DNA of 64,000 nt, from NCBI GenBank assembly GCA_016789455.1, contig JAEUQU010000002.1:930001-994000 (forward strand). Direction: 5' to 3'. Source of the stretch: Candidatus Saccharibacteria bacterium. GTDB lineage: Bacteria > Patescibacteriota > Saccharimonadia > Saccharimonadales > Saccharimonadaceae. The position numbers and the translations under genes were made by a program. The notes beneath the pieces are model-generated. The model saw nothing but the letters and a program-made list of their open reading frames with translations. It made no database searches and was not told the DNA's origin. Positions 5,295-61,737 of this stretch are shown here, piece after piece. Position 1 is the stretch's first letter; each line of letters opens with the position of its first letter.

Positions 5295-5344
5295 GTGGCC
5301 TCCTTGCAGGGGCCGGCGGTTGGGGGGGCATTCGCCCCGCGTGA

Positions 5345-5365: not shown

Positions 5366-5407
5366 GGCGCGTCACCTCACTTCCATCCGTAGACATACGA
5401 CCATTCG

Positions 5408-5949: not shown

Positions 5950-5995
5950 GACTACCTCCAGATGTCGTAACTACTGGTCGTACGATGACCTTTCT

Positions 5996-6024
5996 ATTAT
6001 ATCATTTTACAGTAGTTTAGTCAA
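5996..6024 (-). promoter_or_regulatory. Promoter of 5434-5949
   Basis: -35 TTGACT (6019-6024), 17-bp spacer, -10 TATAAT (5996-6001) on the minus strand. Confidence 0.8.
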
Positions 6025-6075
6025 TGATTTGGCGCACAGCCGTCGTTGCGCGGACGGCGCGGATGACGCAGTGAC

Positions 6076-6122
6076 AAAGAAAAATGGCCCTGCGCACCCC
6101 CACCAGAGGAGTGCGCAGGGCC
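6076..6122 (-). terminator. Terminator of 6129-6845
   Basis: Perfect 12-bp stem GGCCCTGCGCAC / GTGCGCAGGGCC followed by ATTTTTCTTT on the minus strand, starting 6 nt after the stop codon. Confidence 0.88.
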
Positions 6123-6128
6123 AAGCTG

Positions 6129-6845: not shown

Positions 6846-6944
6846 CTACACCCCTTTCTAGAGTCGTGCAGGTACGGGCTTGATGACATCGTTGTCACAG
6901 CTTCTTGACCAAGATATCATAATATTTTAAAGTATCAAAGCTTT

Positions 6945-7454
6945 TTATCGCAAGGCGGCCTTGATCTTTTCAGCCACCTGCTCCGGTGTCAGGCCGTCGG
7001 TATCGATCACCAGCTCATCCCCGATCTCGGCCGTCTCGCGGCTGTTCAGATACTCATCAAGATCCTGTTTATTCTCAATCCGATACGGGTCATGGCGGCC
7101 TTCCACCCGCTCCAGCAGCGTCTCGTATGATGCAATCAGGCGGATCGGCTTGAATATGTAATCGGGGTTATCCGCGACCACCGCGCGGACGCCATCCACC
7201 GTCACCTTGTCCGGCGAGCAGCGGGTATAGATGATGTTGCCGCCCTGCCCCAACAGGTGCCGGATGACTGGCTGCGTCACCTCATCCATGAGGCGCGGGA
7301 TGCGGTGCTCCTTGACGATGTTGTACACGGCATTCTTGAGATCATGGAACCATAACACTTTCCAATCCAGCTCTTTTTCCAGGATGCGGGCGACGGTGAT
7401 TTTGCCGACACCGGGGTTGCCGCGGAGATATACGAAATAGTGCCCGGACCGCAC
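6945..7454 (-). CDS. P-loop kinase-like protein
   Basis: 169 residues. The Walker A motif is GNPGVGKIT at residues 12-20, followed by a small kinase-like fold: an acidic/helical FHDLKNAVYNIVKEH, an R-rich lid region (YETLLERVEGRHDPYRI) and a C-terminal VIDTDGLTPEQVAEKIKAAL, typical of small nucleotide or sugar kinases. Substrate unknown. No ATG fits the start. The first usable codon is GTG at 7454, and it lies inside the terminator hairpin of the upstream gene. Base composition is less GC-rich than the flanking orphan genes, so this may be a resident gene whose original 5' end was displaced by insertion of the orphan gene. Confidence 0.72.
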   Translation of the reverse strand: MRSGHYFVYLRGNPGVGKITVARILEKELDWKVLWFHDLKNAVYNIVKEHRIPRLMDEVTQPVIRHLLGQGGNIIYTRCSPDKVTVDGVRAVVADNPDYIFKPIRLIASYETLLERVEGRHDPYRIENKQDLDEYLNSRETAEIGDELVIDTDGLTPEQVAEKIKAALR

Positions 7455-7479
7455 TCCACGAAGGAGCGCGGTCCGGGCA
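7441..7479 (-). terminator. Hairpin after 7485-8714, overlapping the next gene's start
   Basis: Perfect 12-bp stem TGCCCGGACCGC / GCGGTCCGGGCA. No T-run follows (CTATTTCG). It covers the putative GTG start of the kinase gene, so it may both terminate the upstream transcript and hide the kinase start. Confidence 0.6.
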
Positions 7480-7484
7480 GTGGT

Positions 7485-8714
7485 TCAGGCCCAGTACGGC
7501 AGTTCCCAGCCGGCCAGCGGCAGGTCTTCCGGCCGCCGCCCGTCAGAGAACAGGCACTGCAGCCGCTCGCGGCCGTCCGCCAATGGCGGCAGGGCTGCCA
7601 GCTCAGACAGCAGCGGCCGGGTCGGCGGCAGCGGCAGTGTGTACAGCTGGCCGGCGGGACCGATGTGGCCGTGGCGTCCCCGGATCATGCCCGGGCGCAC
7701 CATGACCTCGTCGCCCGGCTGCAGTTGCCAGGGGACGTCGTCGCCGGGTTGGTGCTGCAGGATCAGCGGCAAGCCGCGCGGACGGCGAATGGTCACCCGC
7801 AGGTTGCCGTCCAGCTGCAAGAAGTGCCAGCCGTGGCGTTGGCTTGCCAGGACGGCACGGATCCAGGAGTCGTGCATGGCGGCTGCCATCGCCTCCTCGG
7901 GCGTGCGGCCCGAGCGGGTGCCCCTGGTGCGCTGCCGATCCTGCTGGTAGCGCAGCACGCCGTCGCAGTACAGCCGGTAGATCAGTGCCGCCCGCCTGGG
8001 ACGGCTCTGCAGGTGTTCATCGATCTTCTGGCGCAGCACGGCGAACCGGTCGGACCACTCGTCCTGTGCGATGCAGTAGGCCATCAGGACGAGGCTCCAG
8101 CTGCTGGCCGGGCACCGCTCGGCCACCTTCAGGCGGCTGGACGGGTCCAGTCTGAGCACCAGTCCGAGCTGATGTTCGTCGGCGATGCGGTACAGCCGCA
8201 GGGCGCCGGCCAGCTCGATGCAGATCAGGTCACCCTCTTCCATGACGCCGGTCGATGCCAGCCACTCGCGGAGCAGCCCGTTGTCGGAGCTTAGGAGCGC
8301 CGGCGCGTGGTAGCGCATGAGCGATGTGGCGAAGCCCATCACCTGTCCGCGGGTAGCGAACAGGCGCTGTGCCGCCCCATCCCGCAGGAAGCCCAGCAGG
8401 TGGTGGTACGGCGAATGGTGGTCATCGCCCGGGGTCAGGCAGAGACTTTCGACCACCCGGCGGGCGGTCTCGTCGCCCCGGTCCCGGCTGATGATGGGCA
8501 CGTAGCGCAGCCCGGTCACCCGGTTGCGGTCTACCGTGTCACGCCCCAGGAACCGGACGCAGGCCAGCACCAGGACGTCGTGGCCGGCACCGAGCTCGAG
8601 GGCGCGGCGCAGGTATGCCTCGTCGTCCGCCTCGTTGCCAAGTTCGGCGACGATGCCGTCGACGAGGTGCAGGTCATCCGGGTCGAGGGTGGTACGGCTG
8701 ATTCTCTCCGACAT
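7485..8714 (-). CDS. Large orphan island protein, unknown function
   Basis: 409 residues, the longest gene of this island. No known domain. The N-terminal third carries helical repeats (VDGIVAELGNEADDEAYLRRALELGAG begins at ~residue 20). The middle is helical with Arg-rich stretches (IYRLYCDGVLRYQQDRQR). The C-terminal ~120 residues are beta-like (HGWHFLQLDGNLRVTIRRP, LQPGDEVMVRPGMIRGRHGHIG), resembling an OB- or KOW-like barrel. It has a TATAAT box upstream (near 8808) and a hairpin downstream. Probably cytoplasmic. Confidence 0.66.
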   Translation of the reverse strand: MSERISRTTLDPDDLHLVDGIVAELGNEADDEAYLRRALELGAGHDVLVLACVRFLGRDTVDRNRVTGLRYVPIISRDRGDETARRVVESLCLTPGDDHHSPYHHLLGFLRDGAAQRLFATRGQVMGFATSLMRYHAPALLSSDNGLLREWLASTGVMEEGDLICIELAGALRLYRIADEHQLGLVLRLDPSSRLKVAERCPASSWSLVLMAYCIAQDEWSDRFAVLRQKIDEHLQSRPRRAALIYRLYCDGVLRYQQDRQRTRGTRSGRTPEEAMAAAMHDSWIRAVLASQRHGWHFLQLDGNLRVTIRRPRGLPLILQHQPGDDVPWQLQPGDEVMVRPGMIRGRHGHIGPAGQLYTLPLPPTRPLLSELAALPPLADGRERLQCLFSDGRRPEDLPLAGWELPYWA

Positions 8715-8830
8715 CAGTCTCTCACTTCGGGTCGGCGCGGCAGCACACGGCTGCCACGATGTATGGGTACGAAAAAACAGGTCTGGGCCTGTCCTATATT
8801 TATTATAGCATAAAAAGTAAAAATTACAAT

Positions 8831-8889
8831 TAAAACGGCCCCGGAGCGGCCACCAGCTGCAGCGCAGCTCCGGGGTCGCTTCGGGGCCG
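8831..8889 (-). terminator. Terminator of 8931-9359
   Basis: CGGCCCCGAAGCG pairs with CGCTCCGGGGCCG (one mismatch), followed by TTTTAATTG on the minus strand. Confidence 0.75.
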
Positions 8890-8930
8890 GGCGGCCCAGA
8901 TGATCTGGGGTTTGTCCGTCGATGGACGGG

Positions 8931-9359
8931 CTACCCGGTGACGGGCTTCAGGGCGCCGAAGAGCTCCATCAGCTGGCGGAAGTCATCTTCACTGCCGCGC
9001 AGGGCGGCCAGCAGCAGGCGCATCAGGTACTTGTCGCCGAGGCCTTCCATCACCTCCAGCGCGCCGCGGGCGTTGCCGGTCAGGATGTCCGAATGGAAGC
9101 TGTCCAGCCGTCGGTCGTGATCTTCCGTGCGCAGTGCCCGCTCGGCCGCCACGGCCAGTGCCGTGAAGCCGGCTTCGTGCTGCGAGATCCAGAGGTTGGC
9201 CGCCGCGGTGAGCTGGTGGCGTGGCGCGCTGCGCTTCACGTCGTCCGGCGCGTCAGTGCCGACCTCCGATTGGAAAATCATGTCCAGCAGCCGCAGCCCC
9301 ATCTCCACCCGCAGGTCCTCGACCGTCGCGGGCAGCGGCAGGGTCTCGTCGGTGTCCAT
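8931..9359 (-). CDS. Orphan island protein, all-helical, unknown function
   Basis: 142 residues, acidic and predicted mostly alpha-helical (VEDLRVEMGLRLLDMIF, ANLWISQHEAGFTALAVAAE, DKYLMRLLLAALRGSEDDF). No family recognised. The ATG has GGAG about 8 nt upstream. Its single-gene layout with terminator matches its island neighbours. Confidence 0.6.
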   Translation of the reverse strand: MDTDETLPLPATVEDLRVEMGLRLLDMIFQSEVGTDAPDDVKRSAPRHQLTAAANLWISQHEAGFTALAVAAERALRTEDHDRRLDSFHSDILTGNARGALEVMEGLGDKYLMRLLLAALRGSEDDFRQLMELFGALKPVTG

Positions 9360-9504
9360 CAGTCGTTCTCCGTTCAGTCGGTGGCCGGGATGGCCAGGGG
9401 GTTGGCCATGCGGTGTACTCCAAACTTCTCTCGGTGGGTCAATCTGGATTGCTATACTATAAAAGAAAACGTTGTATAAATCAATAACAATCCATCCTAT
9501 TGCT

Positions 9505-9533
9505 TTGACATTTTTAGTAAAAAATATTATAAT
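9505..9533 (+). promoter_or_regulatory. Perfect-consensus promoter of 9591-10211
   Basis: TTGACA (9505-9510), 17-bp spacer, TATAAT (9528-9533): both hexamers match the sigma70 consensus exactly. A small GGGCT/AGCCC hairpin follows in the leader. Confidence 0.9.
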
Positions 9534-9590
9534 ACATATATTGGGCTCTTGCAGCCCTCATTCCCTGCCACATCGACCAGTGAGGTATCC

Positions 9591-15026: not shown

Positions 15027-15062
15027 TGGCGGTTCACAACGGCGGAAGTATGGAACTACTAT
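15027..15062. repeat. 36-bp motif, copy 3 (most diverged)
   Basis: Starts TGGCGGTTC and ends GGAACTACTAT. Same length as the motifs at 16835-16870 (28/36 identical) and 18322-18357. It lies between the HTH-PRTase operator and the end of the CPCC gene. It may be an old attachment-site scar. Confidence 0.5.
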
Positions 15063-15712
15063 CAAGCTAATTCGTTGGGCGTAGGCGGACGAGCATCCTT
15101 GATATAATGCTTCTCTACAGCCCCAAACTTCAAATAGTTCCTCCTTGCTCCTTCAAGGCTCAAATCACCATTTGGCCCGCCCCGCACTTCTTTGGGATTG
15201 TCATATTCGCCGTCATCTTCCCAAAGACAAACCGGGCAAATATCAAAGCTGCCGCGTTCAGAGATTGTTATGTTGCCACATACCAAGCAAGCCACGCCAG
15301 CAGGATGCTTAATTTTCTTACGGGTTTTTATGTAGTGATACGAGCCTGCTTTGTCCGTAAGAGTGCATTCCCATTTGCCGTCCACTCTGAAGCAAACTTC
15401 TTTGAATTTAAAGATTGGCGATCGATTGTAACCAACCCTTCCCATGAGCGCAGCTTTTGCCAGTTCTATATGGTACTCGAGATTTTCTTCTTCTGCCGTG
15501 TGCCAATGTCCACAGTCAACACCTTCAACTTCGAGTCCGACGAATGACCCGCCGCTATGCCACCAGTACAGCGCCACCGGCAGAGCGTTGCGGATACTGC
15601 TCGTGAATGCCCACTCCTCCCGATCCTCATTCTCAGAATAAGTCGCGATCACGTCCGGAATCACTTTCAATTCCAAATAGTAGCGCTTGAACATTTTCTC
15701 TTGCTCGCTCAT
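15062..15712 (-). CDS. CPCC-domain protein with extra N-terminal domain
   Basis: 216 residues from MSEQEKMFKRYYLELKV. The C-terminal third matches the cysteine-rich CPCC family: CLVCGNITISERGSFDICPVC then LWEDDGEYDN and GGPNGDLSLEGARRNYLKFGA. The N-terminal ~130 residues (IPDVIATYSENEDREEW, LPVALYWWHSGGSFVGLEV) are a separate unrecognised domain; most CPCC proteins are shorter. The longer in-frame upstream extension (to 15898) was rejected: it would overlap the divergent leucine-rich-repeat gene and lacks a start signal. A zinc-binding site from the four Cys is likely. Confidence 0.8.
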   Translation of the reverse strand: MSEQEKMFKRYYLELKVIPDVIATYSENEDREEWAFTSSIRNALPVALYWWHSGGSFVGLEVEGVDCGHWHTAEEENLEYHIELAKAALMGRVGYNRSPIFKFKEVCFRVDGKWECTLTDKAGSYHYIKTRKKIKHPAGVACLVCGNITISERGSFDICPVCLWEDDGEYDNPKEVRGGPNGDLSLEGARRNYLKFGAVEKHYIKDARPPTPNELA

Positions 15713-15797
15713 ACATACATCATACACTTCATAACGAACAAACCACCAACCCGCCACGTGAGCCACTAAGCCGTGAGAGTGGTTTATAGTAACAAGT

Positions 15798-16607
15798 ATG
15801 AAGTTCTTCAATCGCACACCAAAACTGAGAGTATTTATCGAAGATCTGGCGAAGCTCTCTCCTGATACCAAAAAGATACGCATCCACGGCAATGCCAAGA
15901 ACCTGGCATTTCTAGGAGAAATGCATCGTCTAGAGCGATTATCAGTCTACACCCTTAATCAAGCGCAACTAGAGCAGATCTGCTTGGTTGCCCGGCCAAA
16001 GTCACTGAGGCTGTACGAATTGCGGGCAACGGATTTGTCGCCACTCGCTCAACTATCAACCGTGGAGCAGTTAGAGCTGAACTGGAATACCAAAACCACC
16101 GAGTTGTGGGACATGCGCGACAACCTTAGGCTGATCAAGCTGAGTATCAATGACTTTTCTAAACTGCATGATATAGCGGCACTTAGTGACGCTACGCAGC
16201 TGACCGAGCTGTCCCTGACTGGTGGCATCTGGAATAAGCTTAAGTTACGATCTCTTGAGCCACTCAGTGCCTTGACATCACTGCGGAAGTTATGTTTGGC
16301 CAACCTCAGCGTCGCGCAGGGTGGCCTTAAGCCTTTGGCTAACCTTTCCAGGCTTGAAGAACTGGACCTATCAAGACAGTTTGATACCGAAGAGTATGCT
16401 CGTCTATCAGTTGCGCTGCCCAATACGCGTTGCGAGTATTTTGCGCCTTACGTATCCGTAAAAGGGGTCTTCCCTAATGCGGACGTTCAGGTTGTTGGTA
16501 GAGGAAAGCCATTATTGCATTCAAAACGGGATGCCGAGCGGCTGGCAAAATATTCGAAGCGGTTTGCGGAGATGCAGGAGAGGTTTAGAAATAAACACAA
16601 AATTTAG
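15798..16607 (+). CDS. Leucine-rich-repeat protein
   Basis: 269 residues. About six irregular LRR units are visible, each with LxxLxLxxL-type spacing (MHRLERLSVYTL, STVEQLELNWNT, NLRLIKLSINDF, ATQLTELSLTGG, LTSLRKLCLANL, LSRLEELDLS). The C-terminal ~60 residues are basic and helical (KRDAERLAKYSKRFAEMQERF). No signal peptide, so it is likely a cytoplasmic protein-interaction scaffold. The ATG lies 7 nt from TATAGT (15785-15790), consistent with a leaderless mRNA. Divergent from the CPCC gene. Confidence 0.78.
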   Translation: MKFFNRTPKLRVFIEDLAKLSPDTKKIRIHGNAKNLAFLGEMHRLERLSVYTLNQAQLEQICLVARPKSLRLYELRATDLSPLAQLSTVEQLELNWNTKTTELWDMRDNLRLIKLSINDFSKLHDIAALSDATQLTELSLTGGIWNKLKLRSLEPLSALTSLRKLCLANLSVAQGGLKPLANLSRLEELDLSRQFDTEEYARLSVALPNTRCEYFAPYVSVKGVFPNADVQVVGRGKPLLHSKRDAERLAKYSKRFAEMQERFRNKHKI

Positions 16608-16645: not shown

Positions 16646-16663
16646 TGGCGGGCCCGACCGGAT
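16646..16663. repeat. Left attachment site (tRNA-Asp 3'-end duplication)
   Basis: 18 bp identical to 26189-26206. Directly to its right the sequence diverges from tRNA (AATTCGCCCGC instead of TCGAACCGGCG), so this is the outer boundary of the element. Confidence 0.8.
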
Positions 16664-16679
16664 AATTCGCCCGCTTGGC

Positions 16680-16870
16680 TCGCTCATGCTAACCATGCCA
16701 ACACTGGTTGGCATGGCAGCGCCCGTACCGGCGATGATGCGCCTGGCGGCACATTGATCGCCGGTTCGGATCCGGGCGGTGCACGGCGGATAGAATCAAA
16801 AAATCACCCGTTGGGGTGATTTTGCGATTCTATATGGCGGGCCGTAGCGGAGGAAGTTTGGAACTATTAT
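16680..16870. repeat. Long direct repeat flanking the AlbA_2 gene, copy 1
   Basis: Shared with 18215-18357. Contains a stem-loop built on CCATGCCAAC / GTTGGCATGG, the block GCGCCCGTACCGGCGATGAT, a T-arm-like CGGTTCGGATCCGG, and the 36-bp motif at 16835-16870 (starts TGGCGGGCCG, ends GGAACTATTAT). It has an extra ~48 bp relative to copy 2 that includes a terminator. It is adjacent to the left attachment site. Confidence 0.75.
16797..16824. terminator. Bidirectional hairpin terminator near the left end of the element
   Basis: AATCACCC / GGGTGATT stem, loop GTTG, with A-run before and T-run after, usable in both directions. Confidence 0.75.
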
Positions 16871-16899
16871 GCCGTGTCAGCGGCTGCTAGAATATAGAC

Positions 16900-18183
16900 A
16901 TGAATATCCTTACTATGCCATTTCATAGCATTACATTCGAAAATGTTGTTGCCTTCTGTAAAACTGGGGCCTTAGAGTCATTCAATTTAGACTATAAGAA
17001 GAATATGACGGGCAGCTTGTCGAAGCATTTTGCCACATTCTCCAATACATTTGGTGGCTTAATAATTATTGGCGTTGAGGAAGATAGTACCGGAAGGCCC
17101 AGCACATACGATGGAATTGTTTTTGACGCCAAGTTGATTGATCAAATACACCAGCATGCGTCGAACGTCGATCCTTTTCCTCGCTACAGTGTTCGAGCAA
17201 CCGATGAAGTGAAAGGCAAGGTCTTTATTTTGATAAAGATTGCGGAAGGCGATCAGCCTCCATACATGCCAACCAACGACTTAACTATTAAGATGCGCAC
17301 TGGCAACGTTAGTACGCCCTTGCGTAATCCTGACTCTCGAGAGCTTGAGAAACTTTATGAAAAACGAGCAAAAGCACCACAGGCTCGCGCAAACGCATTA
17401 GATTTATCGTACGAAGTTTACCGGGCAGCATTACGTCCAAAGGCAGAGAAACGACACGCGGAAAAATCTTCGGCATTTGCCCTGCCACTCTCGCCGTACG
17501 ATATTGACGTAGACGTGCCGTATAGGATTTCAATTTTACCCGTGGCGCCCGCAGACCCCATTATCGATTACCGGATGATCAAAGCCCGCATGGATGACTA
17601 CCAGGTGCAAAGTAGGTACGATGACGACTTTCCTAGACACCCTTTGGAAACCATCCCCCGAGGAATTATGTTCTCAAGCACGGACGAGTCTATTTTAAAT
17701 TTTGAGTACGGTACTGTTTTAGACAATGGCTTAATAGATAACATTATAAATGTACTTTATATCGACCCGAAGGACGACAGCCAACAGCTGTGGATGACCC
17801 ACCTCACCAGGCCCCTAATTCGCCAGCTTGAGGTAGCCAGGAAGTTCTATAATCTGGCGGGATTTAATGGACTACTTAACTGCAGACTTACACTTGATAA
17901 TGCAAAAGGACTAACAGTGTATCCGCTTGCGCCAAGCGGTTGGCCCGCGAGTAATTACGGGCGCAAACGTAAGTTAGAAAAAATAGACTCATATGAATGG
18001 GAGCTTCCAGAGCTCGACACATTTAAGCTGAGTGACAAAGCGGCATTAATTTCTAAAGTCACAGAGTTAATAGAGCAATTCTACTGGGACTTTGGCATGG
18101 AAGCGCCACATAGTGAGATGATTAAGGCATACTTTGATGAGCTAGGGTGGAGCATCCCCAGCCCAGCTGAAGATAGGGGCTAA
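16900..18183 (+). CDS. AlbA_2 (Schlafen-type) domain protein, likely defence cargo
   Basis: 427 residues. The N-terminal ~140 residues match the AlbA_2 domain: E..xFNLDYKKNMTG, a helix SKHFATFSNTFGG and LIIIGVEEDSTGRP, the usual E-x-KK...ANTxGGxLxIGV signature. The C-terminal ~280 residues are an unrecognised domain (LPLSPYDIDVDVPYRISIL, WELPELDTFKLSDK). AlbA_2 proteins bind or cleave nucleic acid and occur in several antiphage systems. TAGAAT (16888-16893) is 6 nt before the ATG, so probably leaderless. The gene is bracketed by the 16680/18215 direct repeats, so it could move or be swapped as a cassette. Confidence 0.82.
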   Translation: MNILTMPFHSITFENVVAFCKTGALESFNLDYKKNMTGSLSKHFATFSNTFGGLIIIGVEEDSTGRPSTYDGIVFDAKLIDQIHQHASNVDPFPRYSVRATDEVKGKVFILIKIAEGDQPPYMPTNDLTIKMRTGNVSTPLRNPDSRELEKLYEKRAKAPQARANALDLSYEVYRAALRPKAEKRHAEKSSAFALPLSPYDIDVDVPYRISILPVAPADPIIDYRMIKARMDDYQVQSRYDDDFPRHPLETIPRGIMFSSTDESILNFEYGTVLDNGLIDNIINVLYIDPKDDSQQLWMTHLTRPLIRQLEVARKFYNLAGFNGLLNCRLTLDNAKGLTVYPLAPSGWPASNYGRKRKLEKIDSYEWELPELDTFKLSDKAALISKVTELIEQFYWDFGMEAPHSEMIKAYFDELGWSIPSPAEDRG

Positions 18184-18214
18184 ATTAGAGCGCAGGAGAG
18201 TTTACTTGTGTTGT

Positions 18215-18357
18215 TCGCTCATGCTAACCATGTCAACGCTGGTTAGCATGGCAGCGCCCGTACCGGCGATGATGCGCCTTCGGCACATTCATTGTCGGTT
18301 CAAAGCCGGACGAATTCTATATGGCGAGCCGTGGCGAAGGAAGTCTGTAACTATTAT
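18215..18357. repeat. Long direct repeat flanking the AlbA_2 gene, copy 2
   Basis: Same order of blocks as 16680-16870 but without the terminator segment. Contains the stem ATGCTAACC / GGTTAGCAT and the 36-bp motif (18322-18357; 31/36 identical to the copy at 16835). Lacks the 18-bp tRNA core. Confidence 0.75.
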
Positions 18358-18413
18358 TTTACAGCATAATGTACATGCTTGCTGATACGCCACCTTCAGC
18401 TTAAAATCAGCAC

Positions 18414-19391
18414 ATGAATGACCTTCTCGGCGCCTTAAGCCCTTCAGATGTTTTGAGGGCTATAGCAATCGCTCTACTTGGCCTGACCGCTTTGCTGGCG
18501 TTTTTGGCAGGTCTACTGGCCGGTGTACTCGGTAAAGATCGCGAACATCGTCTTTTCAAAATATCCGGCGGCACAATGATCCTGATGGTTGCAGTCGTCG
18601 CGAACCATGAGAGCGTGTACCTCACCGGTCTGTTCATAGGCGGACTTCTCATTGCTAGCGAAAACTTCATGCTTTTCTTAGCAGCTGTTCTTAACTCCAA
18701 TCACGAGGGAGTTAGCAAGATTGCTTATAACTGGCGAAAAATGAGCCAAGACAACGTGCGCGCCCGTCAGGAACTTGAAGCGGAGCGTGCCGCAGGCGAT
18801 GAGGACAAGGACGACCAGGACTCGGACGACGATGCAAGTGACGGCGGTGGTGGTGACGATAACGGACAACTCACCGACGAAAACGCCGACTCCGGCAAGC
18901 GCGACACCCCTGCTCAATCTACCCCTCGCACCGTTACACCGAAAAGCATTGACGAGGTTGAAAAGCTCGTCTTGGTTGAGCTGCACAGACAAATCGATCC
19001 GCAGAGCCAGTTCATTGAGCAGCATGTGCAGGTTGAGAATAGAAATGGGCCAGTTCAGTACGACGCCGTAATTATTGAGAACGAAACAAACAAAATTATC
19101 CTAGCCGTTGAGGTCAAATTCCAGACAGTAATTAACCCGTCTAGAGTTGAGCGCACCCTTGAGTTAATAGCGCAAAAGTACTTAACGCCAGACTATCCAA
19201 TTCTTATTGTCTTCGTATTTAGCAGATACGCGCACTCTGAAGCACGGCAACTTCTTGATATTAAAGAGAAGTTTAACCAGCAGTACCCAAGCAGTGGTGT
19301 GTCATTCTATACGCTAGACAAAGGTCACCTTAAATCAATTAATAAGACCGATATGAAGCGTCTTTTGCCGTCTACCCTGTACGGGTGGTAG
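18414..19391 (+). CDS. Membrane-anchored PD-(D/E)XK nuclease-like protein
   Basis: 325 residues. Two or three transmembrane segments in the first ~95 residues (AIAIALLGLTALLAFLAGLL, GGTMILMVAVVANHESVYL, GLFIGGLLIASENFML), then a very acidic linker of Asp/Gly-rich residues, then a ~140-residue C-terminal domain. The latter has the restriction-endonuclease-like pattern: YDAVIIENE (D), a strand IILAVEVKF (E-x-K) and a helix RVERTLELIAQKY, then YPILIVFVFSRY. Membrane-tethered nucleases of this kind appear in antiphage systems; catalysis is inferred. TAAAAT (18402-18407) is 6 nt before the ATG (leaderless). Confidence 0.72.
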   Translation: MNDLLGALSPSDVLRAIAIALLGLTALLAFLAGLLAGVLGKDREHRLFKISGGTMILMVAVVANHESVYLTGLFIGGLLIASENFMLFLAAVLNSNHEGVSKIAYNWRKMSQDNVRARQELEAERAAGDEDKDDQDSDDDASDGGGGDDNGQLTDENADSGKRDTPAQSTPRTVTPKSIDEVEKLVLVELHRQIDPQSQFIEQHVQVENRNGPVQYDAVIIENETNKIILAVEVKFQTVINPSRVERTLELIAQKYLTPDYPILIVFVFSRYAHSEARQLLDIKEKFNQQYPSSGVSFYTLDKGHLKSINKTDMKRLLPSTLYGW

Positions 19392-19623
19392 TTACATGCT
19401 ACAATCGGAGCGTTTCGTCTTTGGTGGAATGGATACATAGCCCCTTAGACTACTTGCCATAGTCAGCGTTGCCAGGACGGCAAAGTTTGCATCTAACATG
19501 GTGGACGCAACCAGATGTATGATTATCGTATACGCTTTCACCAACCTTGCCGATGCTAGTCAGCAGACAGCACCCGAACTCACTTAAGCGGTTGGATGGA
19601 TTTCAAAAACTACTTAGATTAAT

Positions 19624-20142
19624 ATGGCATACATGACAACTGAACCACTCAACTTACTGGTAGGCGCGCTGGGTGGCGCTGTGGTAACAAGCATTTTAGG
19701 CCCATACTTAATGCAATCAAAGGATAGACGCACAGCAAGAGCAAAAGCGCTCAACGCGATGCTGGAAGTAGAAGCGAATCGCTGGCACCCAGTTGGATAC
19801 GATACATTTAAATTAAAGGTAATTAAGCTAAGGGCAGCCGCCTTAATCGCCACTACAGATCGTGAACTTGTCGAATCATACATCTATATATCGGCAGTTG
19901 CCCATAACTACAGCTGTTCACCAGATAATGAGTTTAATGATGATGAACATAGTGGAGGCATTCCCGTAGAACTTGCAGCCGCCGCAAGAGAAGCTGGCGA
20001 GCATTTAACCAAAGTACTCTGGTATCCGGTGCGGACAGCTCCATTACTGTTTTACCTTAAACGAAAGCTAAATAGACGGCTTGCCGCAACGCGCAACGCG
20101 CTCAAAGATGACAATATTGTAACTTGGGGAGTTAAAGTCTAA
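19624..20142 (+). CDS. Hypothetical protein with one N-terminal membrane segment
   Basis: 172 residues. Hydrophobic stretch near residues 8-28 (LNLLVGALGGAVVTSILGPYL), then a mostly helical, charged cytoplasmic region (KDRRTARAKALNAMLEVEANR; LAAAAREAGEHLTKVLW). No family recognised. Its stop overlaps by 4 bp the end of the convergent AbiTii gene. The 231-bp gap upstream (19392-19623) holds a GACTA/TAGTC hairpin and a GTTGCC/GGCAA hairpin but no gene I can support. Start could also be the second ATG at codon 4. Confidence 0.62.
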   Translation: MAYMTTEPLNLLVGALGGAVVTSILGPYLMQSKDRRTARAKALNAMLEVEANRWHPVGYDTFKLKVIKLRAAALIATTDRELVESYIYISAVAHNYSCSPDNEFNDDEHSGGIPVELAAAAREAGEHLTKVLWYPVRTAPLLFYLKRKLNRRLAATRNALKDDNIVTWGVKV

Positions 20143-21110
20143 CTTAGCCCAAAGTATTTCATTATTGCTTCCGCCAATAGTGATCCAGAAGCATTAGTTA
20201 CTACTGAACCTCCGCCCTCGCCTGCCTTGCGCATCATCCTCCATAGCCATTCTTGTACGGCGGCGCCGGGACGTTTTCCTTGTTTCTCATCTTCGCCCAC
20301 GGCTTTTTCAAGTTCGTCAATTTGTACAGCAGCTAGTCCTTGGCTAGTCAAATAAGACCGTAAGCTTGCAAAATCTCCAGGCTGAATCATATCGACCGAC
20401 TGATGCACATCGGCTGAATTCGCGACCGCCACATTTGCAGCATTGCCATAAATGGTAGTATGAAATATTTGAGTCACCGTTTTATTGGATGGACTCTCAA
20501 TATATTCTGGTGCCTGCAAGGTTCCTGCACCCAAGTTTAGCTCCGCCTCAATGCTAATCACAAAGTCTAGAACTCTAGTCCTTACACTTTCAGCCACGCC
20601 ATGAAGCAAAGTGCGGTCAATCACCTTGGCCGCAGAACCTAGCACCATGCCCTCGAACATTTCTTTTCTTTGGTAGTAAGCAATAGCATTTCCATTCCAG
20701 GGCATACGAAGCATATTATCTTCGTTTGTCATGCTTGCACCAAGCTTTTCCAGCTCGGCAATAGGTTGCAGGAGCCTGATGCTGAAAAGGTTAGATATAT
20801 GATCAGTGTCAATTAAAAATTTTGGTATTGGTGCGTTTGTTAAACGACTACCCCCGTAACCAAAGAAGTTTCCCAGCACGTGCGCGTTAATAATTCTGTA
20901 TTCAGGAAGGTTTTCATCATTTTTATAGCCACCCGCTTCTGATCTTGCCCAGGAAAGCAGCTCCTCGTTACCTATCTTCGCTGCAAGCCTCATACACAGC
21001 CTTATCATTTCACCCACTGAGGACTTGCCGTCCGTGGCGCTCTCGCTAATGCGATTAAGAAGCCTAATCACTTCAGGGCCAGGTAGTCGTTTCTTCGCCT
21101 TTTTAAACAC
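20139..21110 (-). CDS. AbiTii-domain protein (abortive infection-like)
   Basis: 323 residues. The N-terminal ~100 residues fit the AbiTii domain: EVIRLLNRISESATDGKSS, MIRLCMRLAAKIGNEELLS, WARSEAGGYKNDENLPEYR. The central region is unassigned; the C-terminal part contains IQPGDFASLRSYLTSQGL and a WLWRMMRKAGEGGGSVV segment seen in AbiTii-associated proteins. Start is GTG with AAGGAGGCGATA before it. Lies between the nuclease-like and LexA genes in the mobile element, on the opposite strand. Role in phage defence is inferred from the family. Confidence 0.78.
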   Translation of the reverse strand: MFKKAKKRLPGPEVIRLLNRISESATDGKSSVGEMIRLCMRLAAKIGNEELLSWARSEAGGYKNDENLPEYRIINAHVLGNFFGYGGSRLTNAPIPKFLIDTDHISNLFSIRLLQPIAELEKLGASMTNEDNMLRMPWNGNAIAYYQRKEMFEGMVLGSAAKVIDRTLLHGVAESVRTRVLDFVISIEAELNLGAGTLQAPEYIESPSNKTVTQIFHTTIYGNAANVAVANSADVHQSVDMIQPGDFASLRSYLTSQGLAAVQIDELEKAVGEDEKQGKRPGAAVQEWLWRMMRKAGEGGGSVVTNASGSLLAEAIMKYFGLS

Positions 21111-21201
21111 TATCGCCTCCTTGTAGTCAACGTCAGTATGCCGTTCCTATATCCCGTTTAGCCCGAACTTGCCTCGTGGTCGACGTATGCGGTTATTACC
21201 C

Positions 21202-21240
21202 TTGCGTCACCAGCTATACATGCTGTATAATACTGTATAG
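21202..21240 (+). promoter_or_regulatory. LexA-like gene promoter with palindromic operator
   Basis: -10 TATAAT (21226-21231), weak -35 TTGCGT (21202-21207, 18-bp spacer). CTATACA (21214-21220) and TGTATAG (21234-21240) form an inverted repeat around the -10, a good self-repression site. The GTG start falls 8 nt past the -10, so the transcript is probably leaderless. Confidence 0.7.
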
Positions 21241-21878
21241 TGATCGATCATACAACTAGCCTGAATACTACCGAACAGTCCGCCTTCCGATATATACGTA
21301 ATCGGTTACTTAGAGGCGAAGGCTCACCATCGGTAAGAGAAGTTATGCGGCACATCAAAAAGAGCTCGCCGCGCTCCGCAGATTTAATTATCAATAAGCT
21401 GATCGCCAAGGACCTGTTGCAGCGCAAAGACAGCGGCCAGCTCCAGCTCGTCAAGGATGTCTTCGCCAGCCAGGAGCACGCCAGTACCGTTAGTCTGCCC
21501 ATTGTTGGTACGGTTGCGGCCGGTAGCCCCATCCTAGCGGAGCAGAACATTGATGCATATGTGTCGGTAGATGAGCGACTACTTGCAAAGGCCAAGGGCG
21601 CCAAGTGTTTCTTGCTTCGAGTCAGTGGGGACTCAATGGACAAGCGCGGCATTATGAACGGTGACCTCGCCATTGTGAGGCAGCAGCAGATCGCCAACGC
21701 CGGAGATAACATCGTAGCACTTATCGACGACAGCGCCACCATCAAAGAGCTCACCTTCGCAGAGGACAAGGTCGTACTCAAGCCCCACTCAACCAACGCA
21801 AGCATACGCCCCATCATCCTGCAGGAAGACTTCCTGATACAAGGGATTGTCATTGGCACCCTGCCCGATCCAACTTAG
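21240..21878 (+). CDS. lexA-like: LexA/S24-family repressor of the mobile element
   Basis: 212 residues. N-terminal winged HTH (AFRYIRNRLLRGEGSPSVREV, SADLIINKLIAKDLLQRKD). C-terminal S24 peptidase with the cleavage pair Ala-Gly in VGTVAAGSPILAE, nucleophile Ser in RVSGDSMDKRGI and general-base Lys in SATIKELTF. All residues for self-cleavage are present. Its position in the element suggests that DNA damage controls excision, as for CI/LexA in prophages and islands, although a captured chromosomal LexA is possible. An operator of CTATACA...TGTATAG type overlaps its promoter. Confidence 0.92.
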   Translation: MIDHTTSLNTTEQSAFRYIRNRLLRGEGSPSVREVMRHIKKSSPRSADLIINKLIAKDLLQRKDSGQLQLVKDVFASQEHASTVSLPIVGTVAAGSPILAEQNIDAYVSVDERLLAKAKGAKCFLLRVSGDSMDKRGIMNGDLAIVRQQQIANAGDNIVALIDDSATIKELTFAEDKVVLKPHSTNASIRPIILQEDFLIQGIVIGTLPDPT

Positions 21879-21989
21879 CCCTGAACTCCCTGACGGTACT
21901 CCATGCGAGTACCGGACTGGGCGCTTAGGCACTTACGCACCCGAACCTTAACAATCTTTAATTGGCGCTTAGCGCCAGGAACTAACACT

Positions 21990-22160
21990 ATGGCTAGATT
22001 TGAACACTTTAAAGCAACCAACGGCTTATGGTATTGGCGGCTCAAAGATGGCAATAACCGTATTATCGCGGACGGTGGCGAAGGCTACAGCTCCGAGGAC
22101 TCAGTGCGGCGAGCTGTCAACAATGTGAGCAGCACGGTAGTTAGTCTCTACGGCCGGTAA
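21990..22160 (+). CDS. DUF1508 (YegP-like) small protein
   Basis: 56 residues from MARFEHFKATNGLWYWRLK, after AGGA at a reasonable distance. One DUF1508 unit: F-x-x-Y/W-x-W-R-L-K, GNNRIIADGGEGYSS, then EDSVRRAVNNVSS. E. coli YegP carries two such units; single-unit copies are common. An upstream in-frame ATG (21903) is ignored because the extra 29 residues do not resemble the family. Likely co-transcribed with the LexA-like gene (gap 111 bp). Role unknown. Confidence 0.85.
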   Translation: MARFEHFKATNGLWYWRLKDGNNRIIADGGEGYSSEDSVRRAVNNVSSTVVSLYGR

Positions 22161-22221
22161 CGGCAACATTTGTTAGATTTGTATAATCCCAGTGTCGGCA
22201 TTGTACGCGTCTAATACGAAC

Positions 22222-22252
22222 AAACCCACCTGTTTGCGCAGGTGGGTTTTTG
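22222..22252. terminator. Terminator after the lexA-like/DUF1508 genes
   Basis: AAACCCACCTG / CAGGTGGGTTT stem with loop TTTGCG, then TTTTTGG. Works in both directions. A 14-bp palindrome TAGAAACGTTTCTA follows at 22258-22271. Confidence 0.88.
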
Positions 22253-22350
22253 GATAGTAGAAACGTTTCTAACTCGTACTATACATTTTTCTACATTAGT
22301 ACGCAAGCATAAGCATCATCATATTGCCCACGGGCGCCGTAGTGAAAACC

Positions 22351-22689
22351 CTACAGGTTTAGTGCTCTGAGAATCAACATTGCACCAATAGCTAGCGCCG
22401 GTATCCATAGCACCGATAGTAGCGTCGTGAGCGTAAATAGTATTAAAACGCCAATGCTATTGGTTTTTGGAACAATTTGGTGTTTTTTGTGCTTTAGCCA
22501 GTAGGTTGGTATTGATGCGAAAGATGCCAAGAATACTCCGGGCAGCACAAGCAACACCGTTGCCCAGCTCCATATATTTCCTGTTGCAAAGTTATAAATA
22601 CCGCCAACTAACAGCCACACAGTAATGGCATTTCCCGAGTGGGCGCTGGCGGCTTTTTCGTAGCCTTCTTGTTCGTGCATGGCTGTCAT
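22351..22689 (-). CDS. Small membrane protein
   Basis: 112 residues from MTAMHEQEGYEKAASAHSGN. About three transmembrane segments (AITVWLLVGGIYNFATG, WSWATVLLVLPGVFLASFA, VLILFTLTTLLSVLWIPALAI). Starts 1 nt after the stop of the upstream gene, so translation is probably coupled. Function unknown. Confidence 0.65.
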   Translation of the reverse strand: MTAMHEQEGYEKAASAHSGNAITVWLLVGGIYNFATGNIWSWATVLLVLPGVFLASFASIPTYWLKHKKHQIVPKTNSIGVLILFTLTTLLSVLWIPALAIGAMLILRALNL

Positions 22690-22690
22690 G

Positions 22691-22912
22691 CTATAACTTA
22701 ACCTTTGCATCAACAATTAGCTTTGCAACATAATGCGCTGACGCACCAAAAACTAGCGCCAGCACAAAAGTCTCAATCCAGCCCGTAAAAGTCCTACCTA
22801 CATATATCCCCACCACGCTGCCCAAAGCAAACGCCAAGCCAGTATAGTGGTTCATGATTCTATCTTTGCGCTCTGCTGGCGTTTCTTTTGCAGTATTCGT
22901 CTTACTAGTCAT
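22691..22912 (-). CDS. Small membrane protein
   Basis: 73 residues from MTSKTNTAKETPAERKDRIM, with two transmembrane segments (HYTGLAFALGSVVGIYVG, IETFVLALVFGASAHYVAKL). The longer ATG 11 codons upstream is possible but lacks a ribosome-binding site. Pairs with the next gene on the minus strand. Function unknown. Confidence 0.62.
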   Translation of the reverse strand: MTSKTNTAKETPAERKDRIMNHYTGLAFALGSVVGIYVGRTFTGWIETFVLALVFGASAHYVAKLIVDAKVKL

Positions 22913-23001
22913 ATTTAGTCTCCCATTGGCAATATTGGGCGGCAAACAAAAAGCTCACCGCCAGCGATAACCGAAGTCACCCGATACCGTTTCCAGTACC
23001 G

Positions 23002-23052
23002 ACCATTAGGAATAGTGCTCTGACGATGAGCTTGTTATTCCTAATGGTTTTT
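23002..23052 (+). terminator. Long inverted repeat, terminator-like
   Basis: Perfect 13-bp arms ACCATTAGGAATA (23002-23014) and TATTCCTAATGGT (23036-23048), 21-nt loop, then TTTTATG. Probably insulates the packaging-like gene downstream from upstream transcription. Confidence 0.6.
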
Positions 23053-23154
23053 ATGACCATGCCCCTACTAAGTAGAGGTTTAGGCCAACGTCGTCTGAAC
23101 GACTTGCTTTGGACTATACAATATTTTATAATAAATTACAAGCATAAGGACTTA

Positions 23155-23553
23155 ATGAGGACTCTCCATATGACGGGTGGCACACCAGCACACCGAGCTA
23201 ATCAATACACACGCGACCCACGTCAGAGGGCGTTTCTTAATGCTTATTACAGCCCCACTAGTGATACATATAGCAATGCCTATCAGTCAGCGCTTAGGAG
23301 CGGCTACAGTGAGGCTACAGCTAAAGATTTACTCCATAACCGCCCTAAGTGGTTATCGGAAACACCTGGAGACTCTCAGGCCCCTACAGCCAACCAACTC
23401 CTTGAGGCACTGGGTGAAATCATCAATAACTCAGCCACGGTGACGCGCGATAAAATAAAAGCCATCGAGTTACTCATGAAACATCACGGCATGCTCAAAG
23501 AGCGCGTCCAAGTCGATAGAACCATGATCAATATTCAAAGTGTACTGGACTGA
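23155..23553 (+). CDS. Terminase small-subunit-like protein
   Basis: 132 residues from MRTLHMTGGTPAHRANQ; AAGGAC precedes the ATG, and TTGCTT-17-TATAAT lies upstream. The core FLNAYYSPTSDTYSNAYQSA, SGYSEATAKDLLHN, PKWLSE matches the HTH of phage small terminases (a helix pair ending in GYSxxTAxxxxxxLLxxP). The C-terminal half (VTRDKIKAIELLMKHHGMLK) fits the oligomerisation region. No large terminase subunit is present in the element, as in satellites that redirect a helper phage's packaging motor. Alternative: a generic phage DNA-binding protein. Confidence 0.7.
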   Translation: MRTLHMTGGTPAHRANQYTRDPRQRAFLNAYYSPTSDTYSNAYQSALRSGYSEATAKDLLHNRPKWLSETPGDSQAPTANQLLEALGEIINNSATVTRDKIKAIELLMKHHGMLKERVQVDRTMINIQSVLD

Positions 23554-23570
23554 TATAAAATGGCCTGTAC

Positions 23571-24305
23571 ATGGCCATCCAGCAAGCTCCCTACTCTTTC
23601 ACTCAGTATCATCGCCTGCCTGAATGGCTCAAGCGTAGCTGGAGTATATTTGACCGCGTTCGCATACGTGCCGACTTTAAGAAAGACCTTGACGACACAC
23701 ATGAGCGCCTTGCCCAAGGAGCTGAACGTTCAGTGGAAGTTATTCGAATTCTCAAGACATACAGTTTAGGCCAAGGCATGGACCAACTAATCATAGCTTG
23801 CTTGGAAAACAAGGATATTACCGATGAAGCGCTCCTGAACATGATTCCTCCGCCCGTCAGATTTTTAAACCATGGATTCAAAGTAATTATTCCGGCCGCT
23901 GACCCGCAGGCCGCATACAATGATAATGAGCGGGCGCGTGAAGCCGTGAAGAAGATCAGTGACATCGACATTGCCACCTCAAAAGAAGTGACTTATTTGG
24001 TGATACCTCCCGGGATTAGCAAGGATGAGCTTAAGAACTTTATTGATGAGTACTATGAAGAGTTGCAGACTGCCATACAGGGAACCCAAGAGCTATACTT
24101 TGAGTCCGCACGAAATACTTCAAAGAGGATTCGGCGAGTATCTCCCGATGAAATAATAGATGAACGGATGCATGAGCTAAAAACCATGGGTCATAAGACC
24201 GCATCAATCGCCAGAGTAATCGAGAAGGAGTTTGGAAGACAGTTCACGGCGCCGGAGATTGCCAAGCGTGAGCTGCAGATGAGACGTCGCAAGAATCGTC
24301 AATAA
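23571..24305 (+). CDS. Element protein with C-terminal HTH, unknown function
   Basis: 244 residues. N-terminal part FTQYHRLPEWLKRSWSIFDR then a helical region (FKKDLDDTHERLAQGAERSVE, VEVIRILKTYSLGQG). Central alpha/beta with VTYLVIPPGISKDELKNF. The last ~45 residues look like a HTH (HKTASIARVIEKEFGRQFT, APEIAKRELQMRRRKNRQ). It follows the terminase-like gene by 17 nt, so the two are likely co-expressed. No family recognised; a replication, packaging or DNA-binding role is plausible. Confidence 0.66.
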   Translation: MAIQQAPYSFTQYHRLPEWLKRSWSIFDRVRIRADFKKDLDDTHERLAQGAERSVEVIRILKTYSLGQGMDQLIIACLENKDITDEALLNMIPPPVRFLNHGFKVIIPAADPQAAYNDNERAREAVKKISDIDIATSKEVTYLVIPPGISKDELKNFIDEYYEELQTAIQGTQELYFESARNTSKRIRRVSPDEIIDERMHELKTMGHKTASIARVIEKEFGRQFTAPEIAKRELQMRRRKNRQ

Positions 24306-24420
24306 GCCCTAGTTCTAGTGAAGATGTTTTAGGTTCAATTCACACTCTAAAGTAGGTTCCGTACTGCCCCTATGGAAACCGCCACATAGCGGCAGATGGC
24401 GGACTACCACATGGAGTCTT

Positions 24421-24606
24421 ATGAACGAACTTAAGAGCCGCACAGCGGCCACACCACCCGAAAGCGTACTAAGCCTGCTGGCGAAGACCAGGGACTCACC
24501 TATGGATGAACTGCCTACCGAGGCGCGCATGCTGTTTGAGCTTTGCATGCTTATCGTTAACATTCGATATCGTAGCTTATACGGAGAGGACAGTCGTGAA
24601 CAATAA
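24421..24606 (+). CDS. Small protein upstream of the recombinase
   Basis: 61 residues, acidic, with one helix (EARMLFELCMLIVNIRYRS). GGAG sits close to the ATG. It could be a recombination directionality factor by position only, since such factors are often small and next to large serine integrases; the sequence itself does not show a HTH, so this is speculative. An AT-rich hairpin region (CCGCCAcatagcggcagaTGGCGG) precedes it. Confidence 0.5.
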   Translation: MNELKSRTAATPPESVLSLLAKTRDSPMDELPTEARMLFELCMLIVNIRYRSLYGEDSREQ

Positions 24607-24679
24607 TGATCAGTGCTTCAATAACAACATCCTAGCCGTTGAAGCAATCTGCTAGGCTTAATTCAAAGGAGATACAGCA

Positions 24680-26230
24680 ATGGACTTTCAGGCCAAACTA
24701 CCCAAGAAAAAAGCGTTTGTCTATCTTCGCCGCTCCCAAGACCGTGACGACCGACAGATGCTATCTATAGATAAGCAGGATGCCCAGGTCCAGCAGGTTA
24801 TTAAACGTGAGAGCTTTAGTCCTATTCAACTTGCGCCAGAGGAGCGGTCAGCAAAATCACCAGGACGGCCCATCTTCAACGATATGATGGAGCGGATTAT
24901 GAATGGCGAAGCTCGATACATTGTTGTCTGGGCGCTCAGCAGACTGAGCCGTAATGCCGTGGACGGTGGCGCCATCATCCACGCATTCGATACCGGCAAG
25001 CTACTCGCCATCCATACTCCCAACGGTGTATACCGCAATAATAGCAACGACATAATGATGCTACAGTTTGAGTTTGCGATTGCTAAGAAGAATAACGATG
25101 ATCTTAGCTATCACGTTCGAGAGGGCTTTGCCATGAAGCGCGTCCATGGCCAGTATCCAGGCCCTGCCCCGCTTGGCTACAGGAATGCCATAGTTGGTCC
25201 TGGAATGCGGAATATAGTACCCGACCCCGAAAAGGCTCCTCTTGTAACCAAAGTCTATGAATTGGCGGCGAGTGGTACCTATACCTTGGATGAGCTATGG
25301 CGTGCTGCCCAGCAGATGGGATTATCATCCTCACGCAACAAGCCTATCAGTAAGCAGACTCTGGTTGAGTTATTGCGGCGGCGCGCCAACACTGGGGTAT
25401 TCCAATATGGTGGAGAAGAATGGCATGTAGGCACCTACTCTCCTTTGGTGAGTACTGATCTATACGATCAAGTGCAGGTAGCCATGGGCTGGAAGAAGCC
25501 GACCCACCGCCAATCCACCAGAGGGCGTCAATTCCCCTTCAAGGGCGTGTTGCTATATCATACCTGCGGTCATAATATAACAGCCTACACTAAAGCCAAG
25601 CGCTTATCCGGCGGCAGCACCGCCGAATATACCTATTACACCTGCACCAAAAAGAGTCGGACAGTAAAATGTGACGAAGCGCAGATCAGAAATACTGAAC
25701 TTGAGCGCGCCGTTCGTGAGCACCTTGCAGCTTTCGAGATAAGCGAGACGGAGGCCGCAGCAGCAATTGGCTGGTTGCAGCGTCTTTATGAAGAATCCCA
25801 AAGAGATACAGGAAAGAACAAGACTCGCTGGCTACGAGAGCAGAAAGAGGCTCAGAATGCTCTAGACAGGTTAGATGAGAAGCTTGTGACTGGAGTTATT
25901 GGAGACGACCGTTATAAGTTGCAGGCCGAGAAGTACCAGTCTGCACTTGTTAGAACTGACGCACTCCTGGCCAATCAGGAGCATGACGCCAAAAAGTGGC
26001 TAGAACTAGCTCAGAGTGTCTTCTCAAGCGCTATTAACCTGGGTGACGTTTTCATGGAGGCTAATGACACAGAAAAGCGACGCCTCATGCTTTATCTAGG
26101 TTCGAACTGGAAATTGAGCAACAAAAAAGTCCTGCTAACACCTAGAGAACCTTTCTCATACTTGCACAGCAGGACTAACGGTCTAAATTGGCGGGCCCGA
26201 CCGGATTCGAACCGGCGATCTCCTCCGTGA
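24680..26230 (+). CDS. Large serine recombinase (integrase) of the element
   Basis: 516 residues. Resolvase-type catalytic domain with YLRRSQDRDDRQMLS (nucleophile Ser), IVVWALSRLSRNAVDGG; Recombinase domain (GFAMKRVHGQYPGPAPLGYR, LSSSRNKPISKQTLVELLRR); zinc ribbon HTCGHNIT...YYTCTKKS..VKC; C-terminal coiled coil (QKEAQNALDRLDEKL). Start has AAAGGAGATACAGCA. The last 14 codons lie in the tRNA-Asp gene, so the C-terminus (WRARPDSNRRSPP) is encoded by the attachment site and changes upon excision. Confidence 0.95.
   Translation: MDFQAKLPKKKAFVYLRRSQDRDDRQMLSIDKQDAQVQQVIKRESFSPIQLAPEERSAKSPGRPIFNDMMERIMNGEARYIVVWALSRLSRNAVDGGAIIHAFDTGKLLAIHTPNGVYRNNSNDIMMLQFEFAIAKKNNDDLSYHVREGFAMKRVHGQYPGPAPLGYRNAIVGPGMRNIVPDPEKAPLVTKVYELAASGTYTLDELWRAAQQMGLSSSRNKPISKQTLVELLRRRANTGVFQYGGEEWHVGTYSPLVSTDLYDQVQVAMGWKKPTHRQSTRGRQFPFKGVLLYHTCGHNITAYTKAKRLSGGSTAEYTYYTCTKKSRTVKCDEAQIRNTELERAVREHLAAFEISETEAAAAIGWLQRLYEESQRDTGKNKTRWLREQKEAQNALDRLDEKLVTGVIGDDRYKLQAEKYQSALVRTDALLANQEHDAKKWLELAQSVFSSAINLGDVFMEANDTEKRRLMLYLGSNWKLSNKKVLLTPREPFSYLHSRTNGLNWRARPDSNRRSPP
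26189..26206. repeat. Right attachment site (within tRNA-Asp)
   Basis: 18 bp identical to 16646-16663. It covers the CCA end and acceptor/T-arm of tRNA-Asp. Confidence 0.8.
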
Positions 26231-26266
26231 CAGGGAGGCGTGATAGGCCGACTTCACTACGAGCCC
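26189..26266 (-). tRNA. trnD: tRNA-Asp (GTC)
   Basis: Acceptor GGGCTCG / CGGGCCC (one G-U), anticodon stem-loop CCTCC-CTGTCAC-GGAGG giving GTC, T-arm with GGTTCGAATCC, and an encoded CCA. Serves as the integration site of the 16646-26206 element. Confidence 0.95.
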
Positions 26267-61710: not shown

Positions 61711-61737
61711 AATGTTTTACCCTCTGTATTATCAATT

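Follow-up and report, generated by a model that had tools for sequence, protein, structure and literature searches.

An orphan small terminase and a serine recombinase ending in a tRNA gene mark a satellite-like island family in Saccharibacteria

Introduction

Why would a tiny, probably parasitic bacterium carry, at the end of a tRNA gene, a phage terminase small subunit (TerS) gene with no large subunit (TerL) gene beside it? The Patescibacteria considered here are uncultured, genome-reduced episymbionts, and no phage satellites of this group were described in the literature searched. We analysed a window of 64,000 nucleotides from a Candidatus Saccharibacteria genome of 1.44 Mb in two contigs (assembly GCA_016789455.1, contig JAEUQU010000002.1, positions 930,001 to 994,000), in which an initial annotation had proposed a satellite resembling phage-inducible chromosomal islands (PICIs) in tRNA-Asp. 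Coordinates below are those of the window, and other loci are designated by L numbers. On balance, we favour the view that the element is a phage satellite: an island of about 9.35 kb (16835-26188), inserted by a large serine recombinase (LSR) at the tRNA-Asp 3' end, which belongs to a Patescibacteria family combining TerS with a tRNA- or transfer-messenger RNA (tmRNA)-directed LSR and has its attachment site, attP, within the LSR gene. This island family has not been recognised before.

Results

A small terminase without its large subunit

The protein encoded from 23155 matched Terminase_2 just above the cut-off and PHROG_51, the terminase small subunit family. Relatives in viral contigs, found with an alignment-based scan, carry the same YxxPxSxTFGNSYQSA motif. 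The downstream neighbour was TerL for all six phage relatives tested, and a hidden Markov model (HMM) of the family matched TerL-adjacent phage TerS proteins with E values of 1e-16 to 1e-23. This likeness spans the whole protein, from an N-terminal helix-turn-helix (HTH) motif to the C-terminus, which ends in V-x-(L)NI. Peptide patterns made from single sequences retrieved nothing from the genome and viral collections, where the alignment query succeeded, and no close relative was found in viral, phage or plasmid collections. The top Foldseek matches of an AlphaFold model were all phage small terminases (3zqq, 6w7t, 7joq and SF6), led by a full-length SPP1-like small terminase with a probability of 0.97. 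Judged by its sequence, the 23155 protein is a genuine small-terminase homologue, as had been proposed initially; the HMM comparison suggested at that time led to a phage family and not to a non-phage one.

A search with PHROG_2 detected no TerL in the window genome or in ten others, comprising nine TerS carriers and G026, the only other species of the genus compared. As a positive control, 11 of 14 control genomes responded in this search. The lack of a large subunit, noted earlier for the island, thus holds genome-wide, and TerS is here an orphan with no adjacent terL, unlike its phage relatives.

TerS recurs beside recombinases that end in tRNA genes

TerS homologues were found in 10 of 295 Saccharimonadales genomes, with two copies in the window genome; elsewhere in the phylum, matches were only distant. 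We examined about 20 kb around each homologue. All ten complete loci had an LSR downstream on the same strand, its 3' end running antisense over the 3' end of a tRNA gene (Asp, Pro twice, Glu four times, Lys, Gly and Leu). At L063 the LSR abuts a tmRNA, and L059 is cut by a contig end, so that an LSR is not assessable there. Assuming a generous seven LSRs per Mb, we estimate the chance of a same-strand LSR within 7 kb at about 0.025 per locus, and ten of ten is therefore not a matter of chance. Three distant TerS matches come from other patescibacterial families. They, too, have a nearby LSR, which ends in a tRNA-Asn, tRNA-Gln or tmRNA-like 3' end, and one of these loci has a Prim-Pol gene as well. 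The loci homologous to the window element belong to Candidatus Saccharibacteria genomes, which bears out the earlier attribution to a Saccharibacteria-like genome.

In the window, the LSR lies at one end of the element, where it had been placed from the outset. It contains Resolvase and Recombinase domains and a zinc ribbon just below the cut-off (PF13408, 5e-5). Its open reading frame (ORF) crosses the repeat of the tRNA end and reaches a stop codon within tRNA-Asp, which is encoded on the opposite strand.

TerS and the LSR are the only protein families common to all TerS islands. Sizes of 4.3-9.4 kb recur among the islands. The predicted cargo varies between islands and is often defence-like, including HNH/SRA, a PD-T4-6-like kinase, SIR2-like proteins, PIN/DUF4411 with IrrE-HTH, AlbA_2 and AbiTii. 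A maximum-likelihood tree of 29 LSRs led us to reject a single vertical TerS-LSR lineage: the ten TerS-associated recombinases were interspersed among TerS-less ones, with at least six forced changes and clustering no better than for shuffled labels. Thus, either TerS was gained or lost repeatedly or the LSRs were swapped.

Islands with tRNA-targeting LSRs are common in Saccharimonadales. Most full-length LSRs sampled in this order (L003-L031, L142-L176) run antisense over a tRNA 3' end, with or without TerS. Many islands have a small gene at the same position upstream of the LSR: a protein of 41-87 aa with an EARKLLG motif lies directly upstream in L054, L055, L056, L062 and L154, and other LSR clades carry different small proteins. 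These proteins are candidate recombination directionality factors; a match to a known excisionase was sought in PHROG, and none was obtained.

In-frame recombinase tails at the far ends of the islands

An LSR that recombines at the CCA end of a tRNA is expected to produce an attL site with few tRNA nucleotides. We therefore read the far end of each island in the LSR frame from the core shared by both ends (TGGTGA, TGGCGGGCC and others). Open tails were found in L054 (LVNHLQSNWNDILSDIGDWYQVLR), L055 (LVNYLRSNWNAILLELDNWYTTLV), L056 (LVTLIESNWNSILSEIARWWGLLR), L062 (MVNHIRTNWNNILEEINNWYDILK), L154 (LVARLKSDWNLICSELSRWKQQLE), L060 (LVRYVGEKLHELGVEINRWRDILAVPY) and L156 (MVRYLGKFLHEIDDEIDRWREILTVPY). 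Another LSR clade (L053, L149 and L153) has tails of exactly 56 codons each that can be aligned with one another. Altogether, 13 islands besides that of the window show, at their far end, the LSR frame continuing as a conserved C-terminal tail. Moreover, L178 carries an uninterrupted LSR with no tRNA, and its tail, WLTTIEDVITTIKQDL, is close to WYSTVQEVVTCIHNDI at the far end of L061. When tails were scored in a leave-one-out manner, the attL site ranked first in ten of ten non-window islands, among 4,777-9,556 open positions each, and the core at attL measured 6-9 nt in all ten; the score is blind to the core match, yet the sites had originally been picked by it. The in-frame native tails indicate that attP lies within the LSR gene, and that integration would detach the native tail, with antisense-tRNA codons taking its place. 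The exchange appears to affect the last 20-56 LSR codons.

Boundaries of the window element

An exact 18-bp repeat, TGGCGGGCCCGACCGGAT, occurs at 16647-16664 and 26189-26206, the second copy being the tRNA-Asp 3' end; an exact 18-mer at such spacing far exceeds chance. The direct repeat described in the initial annotation thus exists, but it is probably not the left boundary of the LSR itself. The more probable attL is a 9-nt core that starts at 16835 and lies 188 bp inward of the 18-bp boundary; the element would then measure 9,354 bp. Among the sites inspected, 16835 is the sole left-hand one besides 16647 with nine matching core bases. Sibling tails at 15027 and 18322 have EVxNYY in common with the window tail. 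Outer copies of a tRNA end comparable to that at 16647 are found in L057 (21 bp) and L054 (19 bp) and partially in L053.

The GC content is 0.45-0.52 within the element and about 0.6-0.65 in most of the flanking DNA. Low GC starts already at about 13.9 kb, left of the boundary first reported, so that foreign DNA extends beyond the reported element; together with the sibling tails, this points to repeated insertions at this tRNA-Asp. The low-GC stretch 15062-16607, bounded by the relic LSR tail at 15027, encodes two proteins, one a cysteine-rich CPCC protein and the other with leucine-rich repeats, and probably represents an earlier integration at this tRNA-Asp. A further low-GC stretch (0.41-0.45) occupies the right end of the window (61001-64000).

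A composite unit lies just outside the probable attL (16665-16834, and again at 18215-18321), with counterparts in L057 (9598-9735) and L053 (about 8800-8950). It consists of a strong hairpin, followed by a T-arm/acceptor-like fragment on the strand opposite the target tRNA and then by a bidirectional terminator. In appearance it resembles a convergent tRNA-like RNA of which only the 3' half is present.

In G026, the tRNA-Asp/Thr/Gly synteny is kept with no LSR or TerS at the site. The low-GC DNA that comes after tRNA-Asp here (L038, 7057-9100) is not that of the window; it contains an HNH-like gene and lacks an LSR. Since this unrelated stretch occupies the tRNA-Asp site, G026 offers no clean empty site. 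Comparing genomes with and without the element, as had been proposed, thus yielded a tRNA-Asp free of LSR and TerS but no empty site confirming the 18-bp boundary. An empty-site search for L054 within its genus returned no useful match.

LOOT RNA opposite the recombinase

The window element contains a LOOT RNA that covers model positions 1-121 of 121. According to Rfam, LOOT is present in six of the ten TerS elements, the window and five others, and in all six it lies on the strand opposite TerS and the LSR. Even at a relaxed threshold, none was detected in L053, L054 and L056. Across the order, 53 of 295 genomes have LOOT, compared to none of 14 controls. We inspected 39 other LOOT loci that lack TerS: 18 had an LSR match in the fetched stretch, on the opposite strand in 17 cases. 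LOOT as an exclusive island marker was ruled out, about half of these 39 loci having no nearby LSR. As other loci are chromosomal, LOOT is enriched in islands and not confined to them. In six genomes (L148, L155, L162, L165, L170 and L171), it is found in one conserved chromosomal gene cluster unrelated to LSR islands.

Other genes and neighbouring features

The remaining features are listed in Table 1. The predicted self-cleaving repressor of the initial annotation was recovered as an S24 protein, the single full-length S24 match of the whole genome, with only a weak match to the LexA DNA-binding domain. AbiTii and AlbA_2 were likewise recovered as probable antiphage cargo. For the "membrane nuclease", the only match was one to PDDEXK_4, below threshold.

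The second TerS island of the window genome is inserted in tRNA-Pro (L053, contig C1); immediately beyond its attL, at 7362-8708, is a UG13b defence reverse transcriptase. In L056, a DUF3800-I RNA (RF02969, 5199-5318) was found outside the TerS island of that locus, with a relic LSR tail beside it at 5428.

Table 1. Features of the tRNA-Asp island and its surroundings, in window coordinates.
Feature	Position	Strand	Evidence
Relic LSR tail beginning WRFTTAEVWNYYQANSLG, probably left by an earlier insertion at this tRNA	15027..15105	+	Repeat D1
Outer exact copy of tRNA-Asp 3' end	16647..16664	+	Exact repeat; 188 bp outside probable attL
Probable attL core TGGCGGGCC	16835..16843	+	9-nt match to attR core; LSR frame continues there
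Putative detached native LSR C-terminal tail, WRAVAEEVWNYYAVSAAARI then stop	16835..16897	+	In frame with LSR; would join LSR body at 26188 in circle
SLFN/AlbA_2-domain protein, probable defence cargo	16900..18183	+	PF04326 2e-9; homologue in L062 island
Relic or duplicated attL with LSR tail, WRAVAKEVCNYYFTA then stop	18322..18369	+	In 143-bp duplication of left end; repeats D1, D2, D6
Protein with hydrophobic N-terminus, weak PD-(D/E)XK nuclease match	18414..19391	+	PDDEXK_4 0.038, below cut-off
172-aa protein	19624..20142	+	No Pfam or PHROG match
AbiTii-family protein, probable antiphage cargo	20139..21110	-	PF18864 4e-35; PADLOC AbiTii 1e-34
LexA-like repressor with S24 autopeptidase	21240..21878	+	PF00717 8e-26
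56-aa protein	21990..22160	+	PHROG_1422 (function unassigned) 3.7e-9
LOOT RNA (RF03000)	22966..23086	-	82.2 bits, E 1e-14, gathering score 46.4
Orphan TerS	23155..23553	+	PF03592, PHROG_51 5.6e-9, fold matches, family alignment
244-aa protein in tandem with TerS	23571..24305	+	No homologue among 295 order genomes
61-aa protein directly upstream of LSR, candidate excision factor or regulator	24421..24606	+	Resembles L053 counterpart
LSR, last codons WRARPDSNRRSPP read antisense from tRNA-Asp	24680..26230	+	PF00239, PF07508, PHROG_95 2e-57
attR core TGGCGGGCC at tRNA 3' end	26189..26197	+	Core match
tRNA-Asp (GTC), integration target	26189..26266	-	tRNA prediction

Discussion

A satellite lifestyle is the best reading of these observations, from which we infer excision, an effect of the tail exchange, the use of a helper and packaging. 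In the excised circle, the recombinase would have its native tail, and the full LSR would act on the attB site of the tRNA. Integration would leave this tail at the far end, and the LSR gene would gain an end read antisense from the tRNA. The altered C-terminus, probably together with the small upstream protein, would then govern excision. Upon phage infection, the island would excise, its TerS would direct the TerL and capsid of the helper phage to island DNA, and the cargo would blunt phages. More tentatively, the islands may form an undescribed satellite family in which attP within the LSR gene, tail exchange as a switch between the circular and the integrated state, an orphan TerS, a LOOT regulator and swappable antiphage cargo come together.

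Several observations weigh against a satellite. TerS is missing from most LSR islands, so that packaging is not a general trait of this backbone. No resident phage with a TerL was found in the host genomes searched. Prophages with a TerL are present in other Saccharimonadales; these were rejected as helper candidates, their TerS proteins being, with the exception of one weak match, unlike that of the window. Among the ORFs of the window element scanned with Pfam and PHROG, no AlpA, Stl, primase or Rep/pri-rep module and no structural phage genes were recognised. The AlphaFold model of TerS is of low confidence (predicted local distance difference test 73, predicted template modelling score 0.45), and Foldseek returned no match with an E value of 0.001 or better. 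On tail score alone, the window tail ranks 25 of 36,643 open positions, which is weak by itself.

The main rival explanation, which we consider rather unlikely, is that TerS was domesticated as a DNA-binding regulator or as an excision, replication or maintenance protein, while the island moves in some other way, for example through natural transformation or generalised transduction, with no packaging redirected. The lack of TerL and structural genes would fit such a role, as would the restriction of TerS to a subset of otherwise similar LSR islands and the lack of a close TerS relative in viral, phage or plasmid collections. However, the whole protein remains phage-TerS-like, with both the HTH motif and the C-terminal end kept, and its repeated gain or loss across LSR clades in the absence of TerL suggests selection for the ancestral role. 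Moreover, a general excision factor would not be missing from most LSR islands.

Alternatively, a defence island might hitch-hike by generalised or lateral transduction with TerS as a passenger and without a satellite cycle of its own. The range of cargo, which includes defence families, and the relic tails left by repeated insertion at the same tRNA are in line with this notion, but it is hard to square with TerS being the sole non-recombinase protein common to all these TerS islands, and we regard it as improbable. Least credible of all is a degraded prophage that retained integrase, repressor and TerS: these three genes are typical of prophages and the LSR is of a phage type (PHROG_95), but it is implausible that at least ten islands lost TerL and every structural gene independently while keeping TerS and the LSR intact, island sizes of 4.3-9.4 kb recur, and the islands showed no recognisable fragments of structural genes.

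Satellites shape phage defence elsewhere, and an easily recognised TerS + LSR family offers a handle on the conflict between phages, hosts and satellites in Patescibacteria. The recombinase design would also be new: integration at a tRNA would rewrite the C-terminus of the recombinase itself, which could control directionality. These tRNA-specific serine recombinases (Asp, Glu, Pro, Lys, Gly, Leu and others) may in addition serve as integration tools, and LOOT, an orphan RNA family, gains a recurrent genetic home.

Comparison with known systems

The window RNA matches the full known model of LOOT (RF03000). In the literature searched, we found neither a function for this family nor a link to mobile elements; in the present genomes, tRNA-LSR islands are enriched in it, and it lies almost always on the strand opposite the LSR.

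PICIs have a specific att site with an integrase, terS without terL, and alpA/stl and pri-rep modules in a conserved order, and they use their own TerS to redirect the helper TerL to island DNA (PMC6092414). The window element resembles PICIs, including Staphylococcus aureus pathogenicity islands (SaPIs), in its small size, its specific att site and the integrase gene at one end, and in carrying its own TerS without TerL, a repressor gene and probable phage-resistance cargo. It differs in having a serine integrase in place of the typical tyrosine integrase, in having a LexA-like S24 repressor as its only regulator with no recognised AlpA/Stl or pri-rep, and in its attP within the recombinase gene, its LOOT RNA and its Patescibacteria hosts. 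The PICI-like satellite first proposed therefore stands as regards the orphan TerS, att site, integrase and defence-like cargo, but not as regards the regulatory and replication modules. The core of the phage-inducible chromosomal minimalist islands (PICMIs) of Vibrionaceae consists of an integrase, AlpA and a primase; a TerS homologue was not found in these islands (PMC10803314). They are likewise very small, and in both cases structural parts would come from a helper; in contrast, the present islands have an LSR and TerS with no recognised AlpA or primase. Since PICI modules were not recognised and PICMIs lack TerS, we call the element satellite-like and not a PICI.

In the integrases of archaeal viruses of the Sulfolobus spindle-shaped virus (SSV) type, which are tyrosine recombinases, attP likewise lies inside the integrase gene, and the gene is split on integration. 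The present case differs in that a serine recombinase would lose only its C-terminal tail, and antisense-tRNA codons would take the place of this tail.

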